Below, piece by piece: positions 4,060-17,211 of a DNA stretch of 64,000 nucleotides (positions are counted from its first letter, which is position 1; each line of letters begins with the position of its first letter). The notes beneath the pieces were generated by a model. That model was not told the origin of the DNA. It saw nothing but the letters and a program-made list of their open reading frames with translations, and did no database searches. The translations under genes were made by a program, and so were the position numbers. Origin of the DNA: Arthrobacter sp. MYb213 (GTDB taxonomy: Bacteria; Actinomycetota; Actinomycetes; Actinomycetales; Micrococcaceae); contig NZ_PCQA01000005.1 in the NCBI RefSeq assembly GCF_002979915.1, forward strand, positions 124,001 to 188,000, written 5' to 3'.

Positions 4060-4323
4060 TCAAGCAATTTTCTGCTCCGGAACATCATAAAGTGAGCCAT
4101 CTCGAATCATCGCAAACAGGACTGTCAGTCGACGGTGCGCCAACGCAATGAGCGCCTGGTTGTGGCGTTTACCTTGAGCTCGCTTCCGGTCATAATATTC
4201 CCGGCTGGTTGGATCGAAACGAATGGACGCGAACGCCGAAAGGAAGAGCGCACGTTTCAGTCGCTTGTTGCCTGAATGGCTGACTCGCTCAGACTTGATT
4301 CTGCCTTTCATGATGGAAGGCAT
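4060..4323 (-). pseudogene. IS110-family transposase, C-terminal remnant
   Basis: The 87 codons match the C-terminal Transposase_20 region of IS110/IS1111 transposases: SGNKRLKRALFLSAFAS followed by DPTSREYYDRKRAQGKRHNQALIALAHRR and a short tail ending after the LFAMIRDG segment. The N-terminal RuvC-like DEDD catalytic domain (about 300 residues in the full enzyme) is absent, and the homology stops near 4300 where unrelated surface-protein sequence begins on the opposite strand. The element is therefore a non-functional 3' fragment. The apparent start is only the first in-frame codon. No complete element ends were identified; IS110 elements usually lack terminal inverted repeats. Confidence 0.85.
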
Positions 4324-4717
4324 TGAGAGCGATGAAGACGCCGCGGAGATTCAAGCATTCCTCGAAGAGGTTGTTGCCAACGACTCCGAACGGCGCGCGT
4401 ACTATCTTGAACTGTTCTTCGGCATCCAAGCAACTCCTGACGAGAACAGTTCTGAAGGAACTGTGAGTGAAGAAGAAGAACTGGTTCCGTCCCAGAGTGA
4501 ATCTCCTTCGGCCAATGCTGTCATCGAGCCCGCAGGCCAGGTAAGAGATGCGTCTTCGGACAAGAAGGAAGAGTCCAAGAAGAGCGCCGACGCTGCTACA
4601 CCTGCACTGGCAAACACCGGTATTGACGGTGTCGCGGCTGCCGGGGTGGGGCTACTACTGGCCCTGGCCGGTGCAGTCGTTGTTGCTCTGGGTCGTAGGA
4701 AATCGGCCAAGCACTAG
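4317..4717 (+). pseudogene. C-terminal fragment of an LPxTG-like (LANTG) cell-wall-anchored protein
   Basis: From about 4317 the plus strand encodes an acidic stretch, then a Ser/Glu/Lys-rich spacer, then LANTG at roughly 4609-4623, a hydrophobic helix (about 20 residues) and the basic tail RRKSAKH. This order is a cell-wall sorting signal; the LAxTG variant is typical of class E sortase substrates in high-GC actinobacteria. No signal peptide precedes it. The in-frame ATG at 4223 lies inside the antisense IS110 remnant, so the N-terminal part of the surface protein has been lost, probably with the IS insertion or a later deletion. A perfect 21-bp hairpin follows the stop. Confidence 0.7.
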
Positions 4718-4745
4718 CGCCGCGAGATATTACTGGCGAAATACC

Positions 4746-4798
4746 AATTGAAGCTGTTCGGCCACCTTCTTTGAGTCGGTGGCCGAACAGCTTCAATT
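4746..4798. terminator. Bidirectional terminator hairpin
   Basis: A perfect 21-bp inverted repeat (4746-4766 with 4778-4798) closes over an 11-base loop between two convergent genes. The right arm overlaps the stop codon of the flavin reductase gene. A-rich and T-rich flanks allow it to serve both strands. Confidence 0.85.
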
Positions 4799-5341
4799 CT
4801 TTATTTGGGAGTTTTCATCCAAACGGTGCCAAGCACGGTTATGGTAGACCAGTCCGTTGCTGGGTTGGCCGGGTTCGCTATCGCGTTCAATGTGCGACTG
4901 AAGCGCTCGGGCCACAAAAACCGTAGAGGTGCCCGCCTGGACTCGTTCTATGACCTCGCAGCGTACCCAAGCGCGGACTCCATCAAATACCGGTTCGCCG
5001 GTGCTCAGCCTTGACCAGGTTTGCTTCTGTGCGAAGCGGTCGATGCCACTGGTCGCACCAAGCTTCGCCACCTCGATGTCGTGCGCATCCAAGCTGTGAA
5101 CGACAAGAGATGTCGCGCGGGTGAGCACTTTGGCTGCCGAGGACAGCGCAGAAATCGAGAAGACGAGCAGTGGTGGATCAACGCTAATCGAAGCCACTGA
5201 TGTCGCGGTGAGGGCAACGGGTCCGTCTCCGGCATCAGTGGTAATCAGGCTGACGCCACCGGGGTGCCCACGGAAGATCGCTTTGAAATCATCTGCGGGC
5301 AACGACGGCGTTGAAGGCTCCGTTACTTTAGACGCGTGCAC
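4793..5341 (-). CDS. Flavin reductase-like domain protein, coupled to mesD
   Basis: The 182-residue product has the FMN-binding split-barrel fold of the flavin reductase-like family: F..HPGGVSLIT, ALTATSVASISVDPPLLVFSI and RCEVIERVQAGTSTVFVARALQ. Such proteins reduce free FMN or FAD with NAD(P)H and often supply oxygenases. I chose the GTG at 5341 because GAGGAG lies seven bases upstream; the longer frame reaching 5446 has no such site and runs inside mesD. With this start it overlaps the end of mesD by 14 bases, so it should be translationally coupled and is the last gene of mesX-mesD-flavin reductase. A role as electron donor to the MesD/MesX reaction is my inference. Confidence 0.85.
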   Translation of the reverse strand: MHASKVTEPSTPSLPADDFKAIFRGHPGGVSLITTDAGDGPVALTATSVASISVDPPLLVFSISALSSAAKVLTRATSLVVHSLDAHDIEVAKLGATSGIDRFAQKQTWSRLSTGEPVFDGVRAWVRCEVIERVQAGTSTVFVARALQSHIERDSEPGQPSNGLVYHNRAWHRLDENSQIKN

Positions 5342-6368
5342 CAACAAGCTCCTCGCGCAGGATGCCAGCGCCAGCGCTGAGCGCGCTGAGCTTGGCCAGG
5401 GCCACATCGCGGCGGAACGGGGCCATGCCGCAGTTGGTGCTGGCAATCAGCTTGCCCGCATCAACATACTCAAGAGCGTTGCGCAGGGTCTGTGCTACTT
5501 CCTCGGCAGTCTCTACAGCGTCGTTGGCCACATCGATGGCGCCGAGCATCACTCGTTTGCCGCGCACCATTTCAACTACCTCAAGCGGGACATTCGAATG
5601 GTGGGATTCCAGCGAAACGGTGTCGATCGAGGAAGCCTGCAACAGCGGGAAGGATTTCTCGTAGTGGCGCCACTGGGCTCCGAGGGTCGCTTTCCAATCA
5701 TTGTTCGCCTTGATGCCGTAGCCAAAGCAGATATGCACTACGGTCTCGGCTTTGAGTCCCTCGCAGGCGCGCTCCAGTGCGGCGATGCCCCAGTCGGCCA
5801 CTTCGTCAAAGAAGACGTTGAAGGCAGGCTCGTCGAACTGGATGATATCCACCCCGGCGGCTTCAAGTTCGCGGGCTTCCTGGTTCAGGATGGTCGCGAA
5901 TTCCCAGGCCAACTTCTCGCGGCTGCGGTAGTGCGCGTCGTACAAGGTATCAACCATGGTCATCGGGCCAGGCAAGGTCCACTTGATCTGGCGGTCGGTC
6001 AGCGTGCGCAGGAATTTCGCGTCCTGAACGAAGACCGGCTTTTCGCGCTCAACGGCACTGACGACGGTGGGAACGCTGGCATCGTAGCGGTTGCGAATGC
6101 GCACCGTCTCACGCTTTTCGAAGTCGACACCGCTCAGGTGCTCGATGAAGGTCGTGACAAAGTGCTGGCGGGACTGCTCGCCATCGCTGATGATGTCGAT
6201 GCCGCGCTGGGCCTGTTCGAGAACCGCGGCACGCATGGCGTCTTGCTGGCCCTCGCGCAATTGCGCGCCTTCAAGCTTCCAAGGGGACCAAAGCTTTTCA
6301 GGTTCGGCAAGCCATGAAGGCTTGGGCAGGCTGCCGACAATCGACGTGGGGATAAGCGGGGAAGTCAT
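5328..6368 (-). CDS. mesD: Core (folate-independent) methionine synthase MesD
   Basis: This 346-residue protein contains only the catalytic barrel of the MetE family and lacks the N-terminal folate-binding half of full-length MetE (about 750 residues). The zinc site is visible as His212 and Cys214 in VVHICFGYG, a Glu in SLESHH at 254 and Cys313 in STNCGM. VDIIQFDEPAF at 173-183 is the conserved substrate loop. The immediately upstream gene is DUF1852 (mesX). Members of this paired family, named MesD, were reported to methylate homocysteine without methyl-folate or cobalamin but to need DUF1852 and oxygen. It starts 18 bases after mesX. A MetE-paralogue of other function is possible but less likely given the pairing. 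Confidence 0.88.
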   Translation of the reverse strand: MTSPLIPTSIVGSLPKPSWLAEPEKLWSPWKLEGAQLREGQQDAMRAAVLEQAQRGIDIISDGEQSRQHFVTTFIEHLSGVDFEKRETVRIRNRYDASVPTVVSAVEREKPVFVQDAKFLRTLTDRQIKWTLPGPMTMVDTLYDAHYRSREKLAWEFATILNQEARELEAAGVDIIQFDEPAFNVFFDEVADWGIAALERACEGLKAETVVHICFGYGIKANNDWKATLGAQWRHYEKSFPLLQASSIDTVSLESHHSNVPLEVVEMVRGKRVMLGAIDVANDAVETAEEVAQTLRNALEYVDAGKLIASTNCGMAPFRRDVALAKLSALSAGAGILREELVGARV

Positions 6369-6386
6369 GAATTATCTTTCGGATTC

Positions 6387-7379
6387 TTAGGCGACGGGAG
6401 CGGGATAGGAAGCAGCCCACTGCTTGAGCAATTCGCGATTTGGAGCGATGAAGTGCTCTTCGGTGAACTTGCCTTGGATCTTGCCCAATTGGGTTCGTTC
6501 TTCACGGTCATAAAAGACGCGGGTAGGGGAGAAATCCTCTACGCCAAGATTCGGGTGATATACCGCTGGCGCCGCTGAATTAGCGCTGTAGATTTCCGGA
6601 CGGTAGATCTTCTGGAATGTCTCCATGGTGCTGATGAGACTGATCAGCTGCAGATTGGTGTAATCGTTGAGCAGATCACCGCGGAAGTAGAAAGCCAGCG
6701 GAGCGGCGGCGCCTGGTGGCATGAAGTAACGTACGCTCAAGCCCATTTTGCCGAAGTACGTGTCGGTTAATGAATTTTCGTCCTGTTGGTATTCCAAGCC
6801 GAGCACCGGATGGCTGTTGCCTGTGCGGAAATAGGTCTTGGAAGTCGAGACGCTGATGCAGACCACCGGCAGCTGGGCAAAACGCTCACCATAGGCCTGC
6901 GAGTTAAGGAAATGCTGGAAAAGTTGTCCGTGGAGATCACCAAAATCTTCGGGAAGCACCGGAGCTCCGCTGTCATTACACGAGGCTGGAAGCACCACAC
7001 TGAAGTCGTAGTCGCGGACGTACGAAGAAAAGTTATTGCCGACTATTCCCTGGGTCCGAGTGCCGGTGAGTTGATCCACAATCGTGGTTTCAAGGACTTC
7101 TAAAAGGGGGAATTGTTGGTCGATATTATCTGCAGTGAAATGCACATTTGCAGAAATGATTTCCAATTCAAGCGTATAACGGTTTCCCTGAGGATTGTCC
7201 CAGTGAGACAAGGAATTGAACCGCCGGTTGATCATCATCAGGGCATTGCGCAGATTCTCTTCACGACGCTCTCCACGTGCCAAATTGGCGAAGTTTGTCG
7301 TGGTTCGAGAATTCGCTGAAGGAGTGTAATTCTCGTCGAATTTGGTGGTGCTAATGCTGAAGGTCAACGCGTCTGCCAT
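6387..7379 (-). CDS. mesX: MesX, DUF1852 partner of MesD
   Basis: The 330-residue product is a DUF1852 protein, recognisable by FDENYTPSANSRTTTNFANLARG near the N terminus (here split by a few substitutions from family consensus) and HWDNPQGNRYTLELEIISA. The ATG at 7379 fits the family start (FTFSI-type residues then FDENY) better than the in-frame TTG at 7388. DUF1852 is known to be required, with oxygen, for MesD methionine synthesis; its chemical role is not known to me. No cofactor motif such as a Rossmann loop or Fe-S cysteines is visible. It is first in the operon mesX-mesD-flavin reductase and is divergent from a LysR gene 123 bases away. Confidence 0.87.
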   Translation of the reverse strand: MADALTFSISTTKFDENYTPSANSRTTTNFANLARGERREENLRNALMMINRRFNSLSHWDNPQGNRYTLELEIISANVHFTADNIDQQFPLLEVLETTIVDQLTGTRTQGIVGNNFSSYVRDYDFSVVLPASCNDSGAPVLPEDFGDLHGQLFQHFLNSQAYGERFAQLPVVCISVSTSKTYFRTGNSHPVLGLEYQQDENSLTDTYFGKMGLSVRYFMPPGAAAPLAFYFRGDLLNDYTNLQLISLISTMETFQKIYRPEIYSANSAAPAVYHPNLGVEDFSPTRVFYDREERTQLGKIQGKFTEEHFIAPNRELLKQWAASYPAPVA

Positions 7380-7502
7380 GATGGCCAATCTGTCTCTAAA
7401 GGGGCCTTGGTGGGCCGAGGGGAAGTCGATGCGTCAATCATGCAGGGTGTTTGTGGATATCAGGTAACTCGATATAACTATGGATTCATATAGACTCTTC
7501 CT
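7380..7502. promoter_or_regulatory. Divergent mesX / lysR control region
   Basis: This 123-base space separates two divergently transcribed genes, the usual arrangement for a LysR regulator and its target operon. An A/T-rich segment at about 7472-7494 contains T-N11-A matches and the imperfect dyad CTATGGATTCATATAG, a plausible LysR-type box. I see no unambiguous promoter hexamers. Confidence 0.4.
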
Positions 7503-8444
7503 ATGGTTCAGGGAACGAGTGGTTTGACACTGCAGCAGCTTCGCTATTTCGTCGCGGTCGCCTCGGAGGGTTCTATCTCCGCTGCCGCCGACCTGATTTA
7601 CGTGGCGCAGCCCAGCATGTCCGCGGCGATGAAAGAGCTAGAAGCGCGGGTGGGACGCACCTTGCTGATGCGCTCAGCCAGGGGAGTGACGCTCACCGCC
7701 GAAGGCGCAGAGTTCCTCGGCTACGCCCGGCAGGTCCTGGAGCAGGTGGAGCTCCTAGAACATCGCTACCTCGGCCGTCCCGCCGCCCGACGACTGCTGG
7801 GCGTCTCCACCCAGCACTACTCCTTTTCGGTGGATGCCTTCGTGCGAATGGTCCAGGCCAGCGGGGCCGAGGAATACCAATTTTCGCTCCGCGAGACCCG
7901 CACCGAAGAAATCATCGAGGACGTGCGCACCCTGCGAAGCGACATCGGAATCCTGTACCGCAATGACTTCAACCGGAAGGTTATCGACAAGCTGCTGCGC
8001 GAATCCCGGCTCGTCTTCCACCCGCTGTTTTTGGCTGATCCGCACATCTTCATCTCACGCAGCAACCCGCTGGCCGCCCGGGCGCAGGTCACGCTCGAAG
8101 ATCTCGAAGATCTGCCGCGACTGACCTTCGATCAGGGTGCAAACAATTCCTTCTACTTCGCCGAAGAGGTCCTCTCCACACGCTCCAGCCAACGCGAAAT
8201 CCAGGTTTCGGACCGTGCCACCATCTTCAACTTGATGATCGGCCTGGGCGGGTACACGATCTCCACCGGCATCATCAGCGATGAGCTCGATCCCTCCATC
8301 GTTGCCATCCCGCTGGCCATCGAGGAGCGCATCGAGATTGGCTGGATCGACCACGCCGCCATTCCGCTGACCGACCAGGCCCAGCGCTACTTGCAAGAAG
8401 TCCGCGCGGTAGTCGCCAGCTTCGGGGTAGAAGTGCTCGACTGA
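7503..8444 (+). CDS. LysR-family transcriptional regulator, probable controller of mesX-mesD
   Basis: This 313-residue protein has the LysR N-terminal winged helix-turn-helix (LQQLRYFVAVASEGSISAAA followed by QPSMSAAMKELEARVGRTLLMRS, residues 8-60). A periplasmic-binding-protein-like effector domain follows from about residue 90. It lies head to head with mesX and upstream of a methionine biosynthesis pair. By position it is a candidate sensor of a methionine pathway metabolite such as homocysteine, as MetR is in proteobacteria; that is inference. The ATG at 7503 is the first start in the frame. Confidence 0.85.
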   Translation: MVQGTSGLTLQQLRYFVAVASEGSISAAADLIYVAQPSMSAAMKELEARVGRTLLMRSARGVTLTAEGAEFLGYARQVLEQVELLEHRYLGRPAARRLLGVSTQHYSFSVDAFVRMVQASGAEEYQFSLRETRTEEIIEDVRTLRSDIGILYRNDFNRKVIDKLLRESRLVFHPLFLADPHIFISRSNPLAARAQVTLEDLEDLPRLTFDQGANNSFYFAEEVLSTRSSQREIQVSDRATIFNLMIGLGGYTISTGIISDELDPSIVAIPLAIEERIEIGWIDHAAIPLTDQAQRYLQEVRAVVASFGVEVLD

Positions 8445-8678
8445 GCCGACAGCAGCGTAACGCTCGGTCATCGAGCAGTGGCGAATCGTCATAAACTTCG
8501 AGAAAAACAGCTAGATCTTGCTGAACTTGGCTCAAAGTGCGCGTCATAAAGTGGTGCCAGCCACCGCGTCATCATGACAAGGCGACGACATATGAAGCAT
8601 GGCGGCCTTGTATGAAGCCTGCCGTCCGATAGCGCTTGCACCGCCGAACGCCCATGGCCAACCATGGAAGAACAACAA

Positions 8679-8765
8679 CCCATCAAGAGCGACTAAGAGA
8701 TCTGGCTCGAAGACGTCGCAGCAACCATCGGGAAACCGAAAGGTGCTAATGCCAGGAACGATGGA
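8679..8765 (+). promoter_or_regulatory. SAM-I (S-box) riboswitch upstream of metY-metB
   Basis: The region contains the S-box core in order: ATCAAGAG at 8682, AGAGATCTGGCTCGAAG, GCAACC at 8721, and AAAGGTGCTAATGCC at 8739. P1 can form between CCATC (8680-8684) and GATGG (8760-8764), and P2 between GCGAC and GTCGC. P4 is reduced to almost nothing, unlike the Bacillus form. It binds S-adenosylmethionine and lowers expression of the downstream homocysteine-forming genes. No U-tract terminator follows, so the switch may act on translation of metY, whose ATG is 95 bases downstream. The 230 bases between the LysR stop and the riboswitch hold no gene that I recognise. Confidence 0.85.
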
Positions 8766-8859
8766 GCAGTTCCGAACGCGTTTTTGCGTGCAGCGCCTTG
8801 TGCCGCGCTGGACTCGAAGCCAATCGGTGCACTCCCTCGCAGAGAATCGAGGAGGAGCT

Positions 8860-10164
8860 ATGAGCCAAGGAACCGACGCGGTCCACGCCGGATATCGCCC
8901 GAGCGGAGAATTCCGTCCGATGCTGCCACCGCTGCACAATAGTGCGGCCTATCAGTTCGCCTCGCACGCCGAGGCGATCGAGAAGTTCGCGTTGCGCCAG
9001 GCTGGCTTCACTTATTCACGCACCGGCAACCCGACCGTCTCCATCCTGGAGCAGCGGGTCGCCGCCTTAGAAGGTGGGGCGCACGCGGTGGCCACGGCCA
9101 CCGGACAATCCGCCGTCGCCCTCTCGCTGCTGGCGCTGACCCAAGGGGCCAAACATATTGTCGCCTCCGCCTCGCTCTACGGCGGCACCGTGGACCTGTT
9201 CACGGACACCTTCGCCGACTTCGGCATTCGAGTTTCCTTCGTAGACCAGGGTGACCCGGCTGCCTGGGAAGCGGCCATCGAGCCCGATACCCGGGCCTTC
9301 TTCCTGGAATCGGTCTCCAACCCGCTGTGCACCGTCGCCGATCTGCCAGCCATCGCGGACATCGCCCACCGGCACAACATCCCGGTGGTGGTCGATAATA
9401 CGTTGGCCACCCCGATCAACTTCAAGCCCCTAGATTTTGGCGCGGACATCGTGGTGCACTCGGCCACCAAGGCGCTGGCCGGACACGGCTCGGTACTTGG
9501 GGGAGTCATCGTGGACTCGGGCCGCTTCGACTTCACCAACGCCACCCGCTGGCCACAGATTGCCGCACCCCGAGATCGCCTCAACGGTGCTTCTCTGCTC
9601 GGTCGCCACGGCCCGGGCGCCTATGCGATGCTGGTGCGCTCCAAATTCCTGCACGACCTAGGGCCAACCCTTGCCCCGGCCAGCGCACAAGCGATCCTCA
9701 CCGGTATCGAAACCCTGGCCGTCCGCGCCGCCCACGTCGGCCGTAGCGTGCAAACAATCAGCATAGCTTTGGCCGCCCACCCGGGAATCAAGGCTATCCA
9801 CCACCCCTCACTGCCCACCCACCCAAGTCACGCGCTCGCCGGGCGGTTACTTCCGCGGGGCACCGGCTGCGTATTGGCCATTGAATTGGCCGACGAGGCG
9901 TTGGTCTCCGCGGTGATCGATGCGCTGGAACTGATCGCCCTGGCCGCGAACATCGGAGACACTCGTTCGATGATTGCCCACCCCGCCACCATGACCCATT
10001 GCCGGCTCTCCGAACAACAACTCGCCGCCGCGGGGTTGAGCACCGCGGTGCTGCGACTGTCTGTCGGCCTCGAAGACCCCGTTGACCTGATCGCCGACCT
10101 CACCCACGCCCTAGATAGCGCGATCGCCGCGCCAACGGAACTGACCCAAGGAGTTTTCTCATGA
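8860..10164 (+). CDS. metY: O-acetylhomoserine sulfhydrylase (homocysteine synthase)
   Basis: This 434-residue PLP enzyme of the Cys/Met metabolism family joins O-acetylhomoserine and sulfide to give homocysteine. The PLP lysine is Lys204 in HSATKAL. FTYSRTGNPT near residue 50 and the length and insertions around 270 match MetY rather than the shorter MetB. The ATG at 8860 has AGGAGG a few bases upstream; the frame stays open back to 8599 but that extension crosses the SAM riboswitch and is not coding. The stop overlaps the start of the next gene by four bases (ATGA). The product homocysteine is the substrate of MesD encoded nearby on the other strand. Confidence 0.88.
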   Translation: MSQGTDAVHAGYRPSGEFRPMLPPLHNSAAYQFASHAEAIEKFALRQAGFTYSRTGNPTVSILEQRVAALEGGAHAVATATGQSAVALSLLALTQGAKHIVASASLYGGTVDLFTDTFADFGIRVSFVDQGDPAAWEAAIEPDTRAFFLESVSNPLCTVADLPAIADIAHRHNIPVVVDNTLATPINFKPLDFGADIVVHSATKALAGHGSVLGGVIVDSGRFDFTNATRWPQIAAPRDRLNGASLLGRHGPGAYAMLVRSKFLHDLGPTLAPASAQAILTGIETLAVRAAHVGRSVQTISIALAAHPGIKAIHHPSLPTHPSHALAGRLLPRGTGCVLAIELADEALVSAVIDALELIALAANIGDTRSMIAHPATMTHCRLSEQQLAAAGLSTAVLRLSVGLEDPVDLIADLTHALDSAIAAPTELTQGVFS

Positions 10165-11375
10165 GCGGCTTTAACACCCTCGCGGTACACGCCGGACAGC
10201 ATAAAGACCCGGCCACCGGCGCGGTCATCCCGCCGATCTACCAGACCAGCACCTTCATCCAGGACGGCATCAACGTGCTGCGCGCCGGACATGAATACTC
10301 ACGCGGCTCTAACCCCACCCGCAATGGTTTCGAAGAACAATTGAATGCGCTGGAACGCGGGGTCGCCGGGTTCGCCTTCGCCTCCGGGATCGCCGCGGAG
10401 GATGCGCTACTGCGGGCGGTGCTCGCCCCAGATGACCATATCATCCTAGGCGCCGACGGATACGGCGGCACCCACCGGCTGATCAACAATCTGCACCGCA
10501 AATGGGGGATCAGCGCTTCCACCGTGGAGCTGACCGACCTGTCCGCGGCTGCCGCGGCACTGCGCCCCAACACCGCGTTGATTTGGGTGGAAACCCCGTC
10601 CAATCCGCTGTTGAAGATCGCCGATCTTAGCGCTCTGGCCAGCCTGGTTCGCGAGCACGGGGCGCTGCTGGTGGTCGATAACACCTTCGCCACTCCCTAC
10701 CTGCAACGCCCGCTTGATTTTGGGGCTCACGCGGTCATCCACTCCACCACCAAGTACATCGGTGGGCACTCCGATGTGCTCGGCGGCGCGGTCATCGTGG
10801 CCGACTACCTGCACCGGGGCCAATCGCTGGCCGAGGCGGTAGGTTACCAACAATTTGCCGGCGGCGCGGTGGCCGGCCCGCAAGATGCTTACCTTGCCGC
10901 CCGCGGACTAAAAACCCTAGGACTGCGCATGGAACGGCACTGCGCCACCGCGCTAGAACTGGCCCGTTGGCTGCAAACCAGGCCCGAGGTATCCCGCGTC
11001 TACTATCCGGGCCTGCCATCGCACCCCGATCACCGGCTGGCCGCCACCCAGCAGCGCGGCTTTGGCGGGATCATCTCGCTGCAACTGGCCGGTGGGGAAC
11101 ACGCGGCCCGCGCGCTGGCCGAATCCATGGAGTACTTCCAGCTTTCGGTATCCCTGGGCGGGGTGGAATCGCTGGTCTGTTACCCGCGGGAGATGACCCA
11201 CGCCTCCACCATCGGCACTCCCCAGCAAATTCCGGCCGATCTGGTCCGCCTCTCCGTGGGCATCGAGGAGCCGGCGGATCTCATCGCCGATCTCACCGCC
11301 GGGCTGGCCGCGGCCCACAGCGCCACTTCCCTCGCCACACAGAACCTGCCACGCCCCGCCATGGCTTCGGCCTAG
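10161..11375 (+). CDS. metB: Cystathionine gamma-synthase (or related trans-sulfuration PLP enzyme)
   Basis: This 404-residue PLP enzyme is homologous to the preceding gene but belongs to the cystathionine gamma-synthase/lyase branch. Indicators are the VHAGQ..DP.TGAVIPPIYQTSTF start, EYSRGSNPTRN, the PLP lysine Lys198 in HSTTKYIGGHSD and SLGGVESLVCYPREMTHA near the C terminus. CGS makes cystathionine from cysteine and activated homoserine; cystathionine gamma-lyase has the same signatures, so the direction of the reaction is not certain. The pairing with metY under one SAM riboswitch favours the biosynthetic role. Start overlaps the metY stop. Confidence 0.8.
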   Translation: MSGFNTLAVHAGQHKDPATGAVIPPIYQTSTFIQDGINVLRAGHEYSRGSNPTRNGFEEQLNALERGVAGFAFASGIAAEDALLRAVLAPDDHIILGADGYGGTHRLINNLHRKWGISASTVELTDLSAAAAALRPNTALIWVETPSNPLLKIADLSALASLVREHGALLVVDNTFATPYLQRPLDFGAHAVIHSTTKYIGGHSDVLGGAVIVADYLHRGQSLAEAVGYQQFAGGAVAGPQDAYLAARGLKTLGLRMERHCATALELARWLQTRPEVSRVYYPGLPSHPDHRLAATQQRGFGGIISLQLAGGEHAARALAESMEYFQLSVSLGGVESLVCYPREMTHASTIGTPQQIPADLVRLSVGIEEPADLIADLTAGLAAAHSATSLATQNLPRPAMASA

Positions 11376-16868: not shown

Positions 16869-17076
16869 GGTTCGAGGTTAACCTGCGCGGGCATCGGACG
16901 CCGAATCGGTGCGGGTTCTGTTTCTGGCTTCGCGGTGAGCTAGTGCCCATTGCGGCTGGCATCCGCGGCTGTGAGCACCGGGCAAACCTCGGATCGGCCG
17001 GGCAGAAATCACATTTTTCTTGGCTTCATTCACCGGCGCGCACCTGGTGATCTTGGTTAGACTTGGGAGCAGAAGT

Positions 17077-17153
17077 ATCGTGACTGGCGTGAGGTGGAAA
17101 ACCACCGGGGAGCGAGCAACCTGCACTGAATACGGACCGCGCGCCTGGGTCTG
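17077..17153 (+). promoter_or_regulatory. ZTP (pfl) riboswitch upstream of folD
   Basis: The sequence matches the pfl motif in order: CGTGACTGGCG at 17079, GGTGGAAAACCACCGGGGAGCGA at about 17093-17115 (GGTGG pairs with CCACC), and the pseudoknot strand GCGCGCCTGGGT at 17140-17151. ZTP riboswitches sense the purine intermediate ZTP/ZMP, which builds up when 10-formyl-THF is short, and turn on one-carbon folate genes. folD begins 59 bases downstream. The rest of the 343-base purU-folD space shows no gene; minus-strand frames over it are shadows. Confidence 0.9.
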
Positions 17154-17211
17154 GAACCGATCAGCATCGTGAGCCTGCCATTTTTGCGCGGGCCACCACG
17201 GAAGGAACAGT

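Follow-up and report, generated by a model that had tools for sequence, protein, structure and literature searches.

The mesX–mesD locus of Arthrobacter sp. MYb213 probably encodes an aerobic methionine synthase module that depends on neither folate nor cobalamin, in an actinobacterial form equipped with its own flavin reductase and LysR-type regulator. The locus lies in the window analysed here, a 64,000-nt stretch of NZ_PCQA01000005.1 (positions 124,001–188,000), and the host is taken to be a member of the genus Glutamicibacter. As judged from gene content and comparison with related genomes, the module would use FMN, be controlled by the LysR protein and serve as the only synthase of a cell whose methyl groups bypass methyl-folate. 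MesD and MesX themselves are already known; what is new here is the apparent sole-synthase status, the exchange of the module for metF–metE, and the linkage to a LysR gene and a palindrome.

The published systems are those of Acinetobacter baylyi (ACIAD3523/ACIAD3524) and Sphingomonas koreensis (Price 2021, PMC7857596). In these other species, MesD activity needs MesX and is independent of MetF, methyl-folate and cobalamin, a dependence on O2 was predicted, and in E. coli the two genes mesX and mesD were enough (Price 2021, PMC7857596). The original prediction, which ascribed to the MesD family a need for DUF1852 and oxygen but not for methyl-folate or cobalamin, agrees with that report. It had also called the methyl donor unresolved; Price 2021 leaves the methyl source of MesX/MesD open (PMC7857596), and we found no later paper resolving it in the open-access literature, preprints excluded. 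Like the published systems, the present locus has genes of the same two families next to each other, with a putative flavin reductase gene close by, and is predicted to depend on O2. What sets it apart is a LysR gene accompanied by a conserved palindrome, a PF01613-family reductase gene that overlaps mesD, and an exchange with metF–metE at one locus within the genus. The term 'LysR' occurs 0 times in the main text of Price 2021 (PMC7857596).

The core methionine synthase gene mesD (5328–6368, minus strand; 346 aa) was identified by profile matches and residue alignment. Its product matched the NCBIfam model PRK09121 'methionine synthase' best (622 bits; cut-off 392) and Pfam Meth_synt_2 (PF01717) with 124 bits, while Meth_synt_1 (PF08267) scored 22 bits, under its cut-off of 27, leaving the core MetE domain alone. 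MesD residues H212, C214, E254 and C313 align with MetE positions that we take to be the zinc ligands, and S13, E64 and D179 align with positions of the MetE homocysteine site. Among 109 distinct MesD sequences, all of these residues except S13 are on the list of invariant positions, which omits serines. The catalytic zinc core is common to MesD and to MetE, the enzyme that works with MetF, and the earlier description of mesD as only the zinc-bearing core of MetE holds. The gene mesX (6387–7379, minus strand; 330 aa), placed directly upstream of mesD in the original prediction, lies there and encodes a putative oxygenase whose presumed role is to provide the methyl group. MesX matched PF08908 (formerly DUF1852) over its full length (556.4 bits; model positions 1–323 of 323; cut-off 25).

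We then considered the closest 80 named loci among the matches listed, which were found via MesX and comprise 56 actinobacterial and 24 proteobacterial loci (847 kb in total). The two genes adjoin in the window and in 80/80 of these loci, so their pairing is not a matter of chance. With this pairing, and with PRK09121 far over its cut-off, a grouping of the 346-residue protein with MetE-like paralogues unpaired with DUF1852 is not borne out.

To which extent the host has other methionine synthases was addressed by model searches of its genome, which returned 0 matches for MTHFR (MetF), 0 for the MetE folate domain and 0 for the MetH activation domain. Its sole S-methyl_trans (PF02574) protein is a 341-aa frame, too short to be MetH. 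This protein adjoins an ORF that by eye resembles an amino-acid permease, an arrangement that fits S-methylmethionine salvage. Given this lack of matches for MetF, the MetE folate domain and MetH, we infer that MesD/MesX is the only de novo methionine synthase of the host genome. Paenarthrobacter aurescens TC1 likewise has MesD as its seemingly sole synthase and is without MetF (PMC7857596). Among 58 relatives, MetE or MetH occurred in 0/21 MesX-positive genomes versus 29/37 MesX-negative ones; in a sample of 159 genomes of the order, a long MetE or a MetH occurred in 3 of the 18 MesX-positive genomes versus 124 of the 141 MesX-negative ones.

The opposite reading, that the mes module is redundant here and methionine is made mostly by a different synthase, could draw on those three MesX-positive genomes, on the S-methyl_trans protein of the host, and on the report that most organisms with MesD also have MetH or MetE (Price 2021, PMC7857596). 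We consider it quite improbable, as the MetE, MetH and MetF models are without match in the host genome and the S-methyl_trans protein stands beside the permease-like ORF, which fits salvage. Outside the window's genus, a methyl-folate route may exist alongside MesX, because 12 of the 18 MesX-positive genomes of the order sample contain an MTHFR-family match at the Pfam cut-off (3 strong, 9 weak). MTHFR-like proteins akin to a weak match of G018 were found at E ≤ 0.001 in 17 of the 58 relatives and in 0/18 genomes of the window's genus; they might be of the flavin-independent kind.

The homocysteine-forming genes that had been predicted nearby are present downstream of lysR. They are a metY-like gene for an O-acetylhomoserine sulfhydrylase, a PLP enzyme (8860–10164, plus strand; best NCBIfam model TIGR01326, 443 bits, below the cut-off of 495), and a metB-like gene for a cystathionine gamma-synthase (10161–11375, plus strand; PRK07811, 561 bits, cut-off 513). 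The metY frame is open from 8599, and the start at 8860 was assigned visually, on the basis of a GA-rich ribosome-binding site. Ahead of metY–metB lies a SAM riboswitch that had gone unnamed in the original prediction (RF00162; 8677–8767, plus strand; 59.1 bits, gathering threshold 44.4).

Another gene not named before, at 4793–5341 on the minus strand, encodes a flavin reductase (PF01613, 101 bits) with a presumed GTG start at 5341; with this start, the first 14 bases of the gene coincide with the last 14 of mesD, and its product is a candidate supplier of reduced FMN. In two-component FMNH2-dependent monooxygenases, reductases of the MsuE/SsuE or HpaC type are encoded beside the O2-dependent partner. 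The present locus would resemble them in having a putative FMN reductase gene close to a putatively O2-dependent partner, and differs in that MesX shows detectable similarity to no other Pfam family or PDB sequence. Among the 80 named loci of the matches listed, a PF01613-type reductase was encoded near mesX in 25, an MsuE-type reductase in 16 and both in 0, giving 41/80 with either type. The type largely follows taxonomy: the MsuE-type enzyme, which belongs to another family than PF01613, occurs in 16 of the 24 proteobacterial loci. In the remaining 39/80 loci, the available flank, short in some cases, contains no intact reductase gene of the PF01613 or MsuE type, and in the G. soli locus the reductase frame is broken. 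An adjacent reductase is therefore not essential, in keeping with the sufficiency of mesX and mesD in E. coli. In A. baumannii, B12 reportedly lowers the MesX gene together with a gene for a flavin reductase whose locus tag is two numbers away (PMC12892962).

The recurrence of FMN reductases of two families near mesX supports FMNH2 chemistry for MesX, short of proof. MesX might instead be a metal-dependent oxygenase, for instance of the non-haem iron type, with the FMN reductases acting to maintain its metal, or a partner, in the reduced state or being present for another reason. Among 110 distinct MesX sequences, the histidines H150 and H190 and several acidic residues are invariant, as a metal site would have it, and profile searches detected no similarity of MesX to any flavoprotein, oxygenase (FMN-dependent ones included), other Pfam family or PDB sequence of solved structure. 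The loci without an intact adjacent FMN reductase (39/80 among the matches listed) point the same way. However, invariance of such residues is not enough to establish a metal site, and FMN reductases of two distinct families recur in the mesX neighbourhood, so that we regard a metal-dependent MesX as rather unlikely and keep FMNH2 as the probable reductant. In the search of the PDB with the MesX profile, the single match was EVM001 (2grk; E = 0.035), which we took as chance. A far bolder idea, to which we give very little credence, is that MesX founds a new enzyme class that uses O2 and reduced FMN to turn a central metabolite into an electrophilic methyl donor, the flavin N5 itself possibly acting as methyl carrier; in Glutamicibacter, it would then be the entry point of all de novo SAM methyl groups, with no methyl-folate in the cell.

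Divergent from mesX, as had been predicted, is the gene for a LysR-type regulator of 313 aa (7503–8444, plus strand; HTH_1, 72 bits, cut-off 26.6; LysR_substrate, 42.6 bits, cut-off 28). It adjoins mesX in 56/56 named actinobacterial loci among the matches listed and at 16/16 further loci of the order sample. Its ortholog is present in 17/17 MesX-positive congeners and absent from the MesX-negative one; among the 58 relatives, it is missing in three MesX-positive genomes (G018, G031 and G033). The shared promoter region contains a CTAT-N8-ATAG palindrome (7478–7493), our candidate LysR operator. A palindrome of this form lies within 200 nt of mesX in 55/56 actinobacterial and 0/24 proteobacterial loci among the matches listed; in the 847 kb of these loci it occurs 56 times, 55 times upstream of mesX and once elsewhere. 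It is missing in 7 of the 16 order-sample loci and in G041. The longer form CTATA-N6-CATAG occurs once in the host genome versus twice for its backwards control; because of the latter, its rarity alone says little.

Several elements around the palindrome may belong to the two promoters. TATAGA (7489–7494, plus strand), at −14 to −9 from the lysR ATG, could be the −10 element of a leaderless lysR transcript, and its overlap with the palindrome led us to propose autoregulation of lysR. On the minus strand, the TTAC-nn-GAT block TTACCTGAT (7459–7467; conserved in 59/68 distinct mesX–lysR intergenic sequences) is a possible LysR activation half-site near the mesX −35, and CATGAT (7437–7442), within a GCAnnAT block conserved in 56/68, is a possible mesX −10. 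Sigma-70 promoter and terminator scans of 7370–7520 and 4690–4830 gave no matches. Two candidates in the mesX leader were rejected: a conserved GGCC hairpin showed no stem and no covariation in the consensus fold of 25 intergenic sequences, and a small upstream peptide was judged noncoding by eye, the spacing varying by non-multiples of three.

The regulator had been called dedicated, a view that its co-occurrence with mesX and the conserved operator-like site support. It resembles MetR in being a LysR-family protein near methionine synthesis genes; it differs in that the MetR model PRK15421 (cut-off 382) is not among its 25 best of 52 NCBIfam families, the last of which scored 43.7 bits. MetR-like proteins are encoded near mesX in 18/24 proteobacterial loci among the matches listed, and the two that we scanned scored 221 and 199 bits, below the same MetR cut-off. 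A wider role of the regulator in methionine or sulfur metabolism appears improbable. Homologues of 47–48% identity do occur in two MesX-negative relatives (G054 and G038), each about 13–16 kb from metE and metF, although no methionine gene directly adjoins them as read by eye, and the genome-wide site count is close to that of the control. Against such a role stand the absence of the regulator from the MesX-negative congener, its position beside mesX in all the named actinobacterial loci, and the concentration of the palindrome upstream of mesX in the same listed matches.

Under the preferred reading of a mes-dedicated regulator, we propose the following scheme. MetY and MetB, encoded behind the SAM riboswitch, would make homocysteine, onto which MesD, the zinc core of MetE, would move a methyl group. 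MesX, using O2 and probably FMNH2 delivered by the neighbouring flavin reductase, would produce or carry this methyl group from a non-folate source. LysR would bind CTAT-N8-ATAG in the shared promoter region, activate mesX–mesD–frd, and repress its own gene from the site overlapping the proposed lysR −10. We further infer that methyl groups in the host do not pass through methyl-folate. The methyl source could thus be traced in Glutamicibacter without first removing a folate route, and the adjoining regulator and flavin reductase make that source easier to test.

The same locus carries another module within the genus. In G008, the sole MesX-negative genome among 18, it reads SAM riboswitch–metF–metE–metY–metB, showing that the mes genes and metF–metE are exchanged at one locus, a module swap. 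The 17 of 18 genomes that carry MesX without MetF, MetE or MetH, and this one metF–metE genome, form a natural control pair. A MetY tree placed G008 inside the genus (100/99), and the MetB tree left its position without resolution. The GC content at the G008 locus is 69–75%, versus 53–66% in the window. Two flanking genes are in swapped order at the G008 locus.

The MesX/MesD enzyme system is already known, and the locus in the window is one member of it. Our additions are the context of the mes genes in actinobacteria, with their regulator and flavin reductase; the observation that, within this order, MesX nearly excludes MetE, MetH and strong MetF; and an exchange with metFE at one locus inside a genus. 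Together these make a clean natural setting for seeking the methyl donor. The mesX gene (6387–7379) lies upstream of mesD (5328–6368) on the reverse strand, and lysR (7503–8444, forward strand) is divergent from mesX, their start codons being 123 bases apart; all three were found where the original prediction had placed them. To its gene list we add a reverse-strand flavin reductase gene (4793–5341; start inferred), sharing 14 bases with the end of mesD, and a SAM riboswitch (8677–8767, forward strand) downstream of lysR, followed on the same strand by metY-like (8860–10164) and metB-like (10161–11375) genes. A small ORF at 4223–4717 ends in an LPXTG-like anchor (LANTG, by eye) and may be shortened relative to a 388-aa relative in the compared genome G012 (L153:3907–5073). 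A ZMP/ZTP riboswitch (RF01750) is located at 17070–17157, and a second one past the metFEYB genes of genome G027 (L118:15333–15416).

The PF08908 model covers MesX end to end. Matches of 43 MesX relatives to other Pfam families reached E = 0.057 at best, each in a single member, and a PDB sequence search with MesX gave no match above chance. Of the 330 residues of the window's MesX, 79 do not vary across 110 distinct sequences; H150 and H190 are among them, as are many Arg, Tyr, Asp and Glu residues. MesX can travel, because matches occur on plasmid records (209 of 72,556). MesD scored far over cut-off in profile searches with NCBIfam PRK09121 and the catalytic domain of MetE; the folate-binding half of MetE is absent, and a relative has a solved structure (3rpd, E = 1.1e-165). 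Alignment with three MetE proteins from relatives placed MesD H212, C214, E254 and C313 at positions that we take to be the zinc ligands of MetE. In the same alignment, S13, E64 and D179 occupy positions fitting Ser433, Glu484 and Asp599, residues named by Price et al. (2021; PMC7857596). The printed list of invariant MesD residues contains H212, C214, E254, C313, E64 and D179; S13 is absent from this list, which shows no serines. G012 has a second mesD copy, N-terminally shortened (L153:5591–6580; 84% identity over 300 residues), together with a short remnant of a flavin reductase, about 1.8 kb past the point where the intact flavin reductase gene ends.

Judging by the named relatives nearest to it, the own genome is Glutamicibacter-like. 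Profile searches of this genome (completeness, 99.93%) for MTHFR, the MetE N-domain and the MetH activation domain returned no match. The divergent MTHFR-like protein of genome G018 likewise had no match in any of the genus's 18 genomes. The own genome encodes one S-methyl_trans protein (341-aa frame) next to an ORF resembling, by eye, an amino-acid permease, an arrangement that fits S-methylmethionine salvage. Among 58 relatives, 21 carry MesX. MetE or MetH was found in none of these as against 29 of the 37 MesX-negative relatives, and MetF above 100 bits in none as against 28 (2 of 21 and 30 of 37 with weak matches counted); 17 of the 21 belong to one genus and are therefore not independent events.

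Of 159 genomes sampled from the order, 18 carry MesX. With nothing set aside, the MetE N-domain exceeded its cut-off in 6 of these 18 and in 93 of the 141 others. Inspection at the DNA level, which covered MesX-positive genomes, revealed that the MetE matches of G059, G076 and G187 align with the N-terminal half only, and that MetE of G146 is scattered across broken frames. When these were set aside, along with one weak MetE match and twelve weak MetF matches (nine of the twelve in MesX-positive genomes), long MetE or MetH remained in 3 of 18 MesX-positive versus 124 of 141 MesX-negative genomes, and strong MetF in the same 3 versus 120 of 141. At Pfam's own cut-off, 12 of the 18 MesX-positive genomes have MTHFR-family proteins, the weak matches included; the weak ones do not occur in the window's genus. 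The survey of MesD organisms across all bacteria by Price et al. (2021; PMC7857596) reports MetH in 75%, MetE in 32% and MesD as sole synthase in 22%, a larger overlap than this order shows. Three MesX-positive genomes of one genus (L147, L148 and L149) encode a protein aligning only to the N-terminal half of MetE, at about 36% identity.

Within the genus, G008 alone (1 of 18) is without MesX. Its locus, L111, keeps the neighbours of the window locus: a dGTPase (assigned by eye; 79% identity) and a hydroxyacid dehydrogenase (59%), in reversed order relative to the window, and MetY (73%), MetB (84%) and the ORF past metB (43%). Between the shared neighbours, a SAM riboswitch, metF, metE, metY and metB stand in a row. 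In the window, metY-metB keep the riboswitch, and the mes genes are located upstream, on the opposite strand. Of seven stretches from other genera of the family (L115–L121), all with metF beside metE, one (L118 of G027) has the same riboswitch-to-metB order, and one further stretch (L120) has the riboswitch.

We examined the regulator in the best 80 of 585 confirmed MesX relatives, thus the nearest kin, hand-grouped by titles into 56 actinobacterial and 24 proteobacterial loci. An ortholog of the window LysR adjoins mesX in all 56 actinobacterial loci of these best 80, divergently in 55 and on the same strand in one (L097). It also lies beside mesX in 16 of 16 further loci from the order sample (same strand in L145 and L146) and is present in all 17 MesX-positive genomes of the genus; G008 is without it, as are three more distant MesX-positive genomes. 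MetR-like LysR proteins occur near mesX in 18 of the 24 proteobacterial loci among the best 80; for the two scanned, MetR was the best NCBIfam match, yet under its cut-off. A literature search found no paper joining LysR, MesX and methionine. In G013, lysR (L130:7942–8878) is divided between two reading frames; the cause may be a genuine frameshift or an error in sequencing. LysR homologues of 47–48% identity exist in two MesX-negative genomes (G054:C11:478251–479171 and G038:C1:581038–581964), about 13–16 kb from metE and metF. Two Rhizobiales loci have a cobalamin riboswitch just upstream of mesX on the opposite strand (L088:4530–4720 and L091:4487–4690); in L088 the gene past it encodes a thioesterase-like protein.

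Of 68 distinct intergenic sequences, 67 (all but L018 of G041) have the palindrome CTAT-N8-ATAG at a distance of exactly 9 bases from the start codon of lysR. Among the best 80 of 585, 55 of 56 actinobacterial loci have it no more than 200 bases from mesX, and none of the 24 proteobacterial loci does; the 847 kb of these loci contain one match elsewhere. Nine of the 16 order-sample loci carry the palindrome; it is missing from five loci of G041's genus and from the two with same-strand lysR. The genome-wide count used the stricter CTATA-N6-CATAG instead of the looser form: the own genome of 3.79 Mb has a single match, at this locus, and two matches to the backwards control, so that rarity alone is no evidence, though the single match is rightly placed. 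Positions −14 to −9 from the lysR ATG read TATAGn in 57 and CATAGn in 11 of the 68 sequences. This pattern suggests a leaderless lysR transcript with its −10 element inside the palindrome, a placement that would imply autoregulation. Two blocks beside the palindrome are also kept, TTAC-nn-GAT (59/68) and GCA-nn-AT (56/68), which could be a candidate activation half-site and a candidate −10 of mesX, respectively. A sigma-70 consensus scan of 7370–7520 found no promoter.

A putative flavin reductase near mes genes was already noted by Price et al. (2021; PMC7857596). Among the best 80 of 585, the PF01613 type occurs in 25 loci (22/56 actinobacterial and 3/24 proteobacterial), and 16 of the 24 proteobacterial loci have a PF03358 FMN reductase instead; the one scanned (L062) matched TIGR03566 MsuE (252.6 bits; cut-off, 212.5), and membership of the other loci was assigned with profiles built in this analysis. 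None of the 80 loci has both types, and in 39 the available flank contains no intact gene of either. The presence of two FMN reductase families near mesX is consistent with MesX needing reduced FMN; which type is present largely tracks taxonomy. For A. baumannii, PMC12892962 gives a drop with B12 of log2 8.3 in the MesX gene ABUW_3198 and of log2 2.5 in the flavin reductase ABUW_3196. The flavin reductase gene beside mesD in Glutamicibacter soli (L024:7061–7600) carries stop codons within its frame and looks decayed. This broken reductase speaks against such a need being filled by the adjacent gene, as does the finding that mesX plus mesD are enough in E. coli (Price et al., 2021; PMC7857596), so a general cellular reductase can serve.
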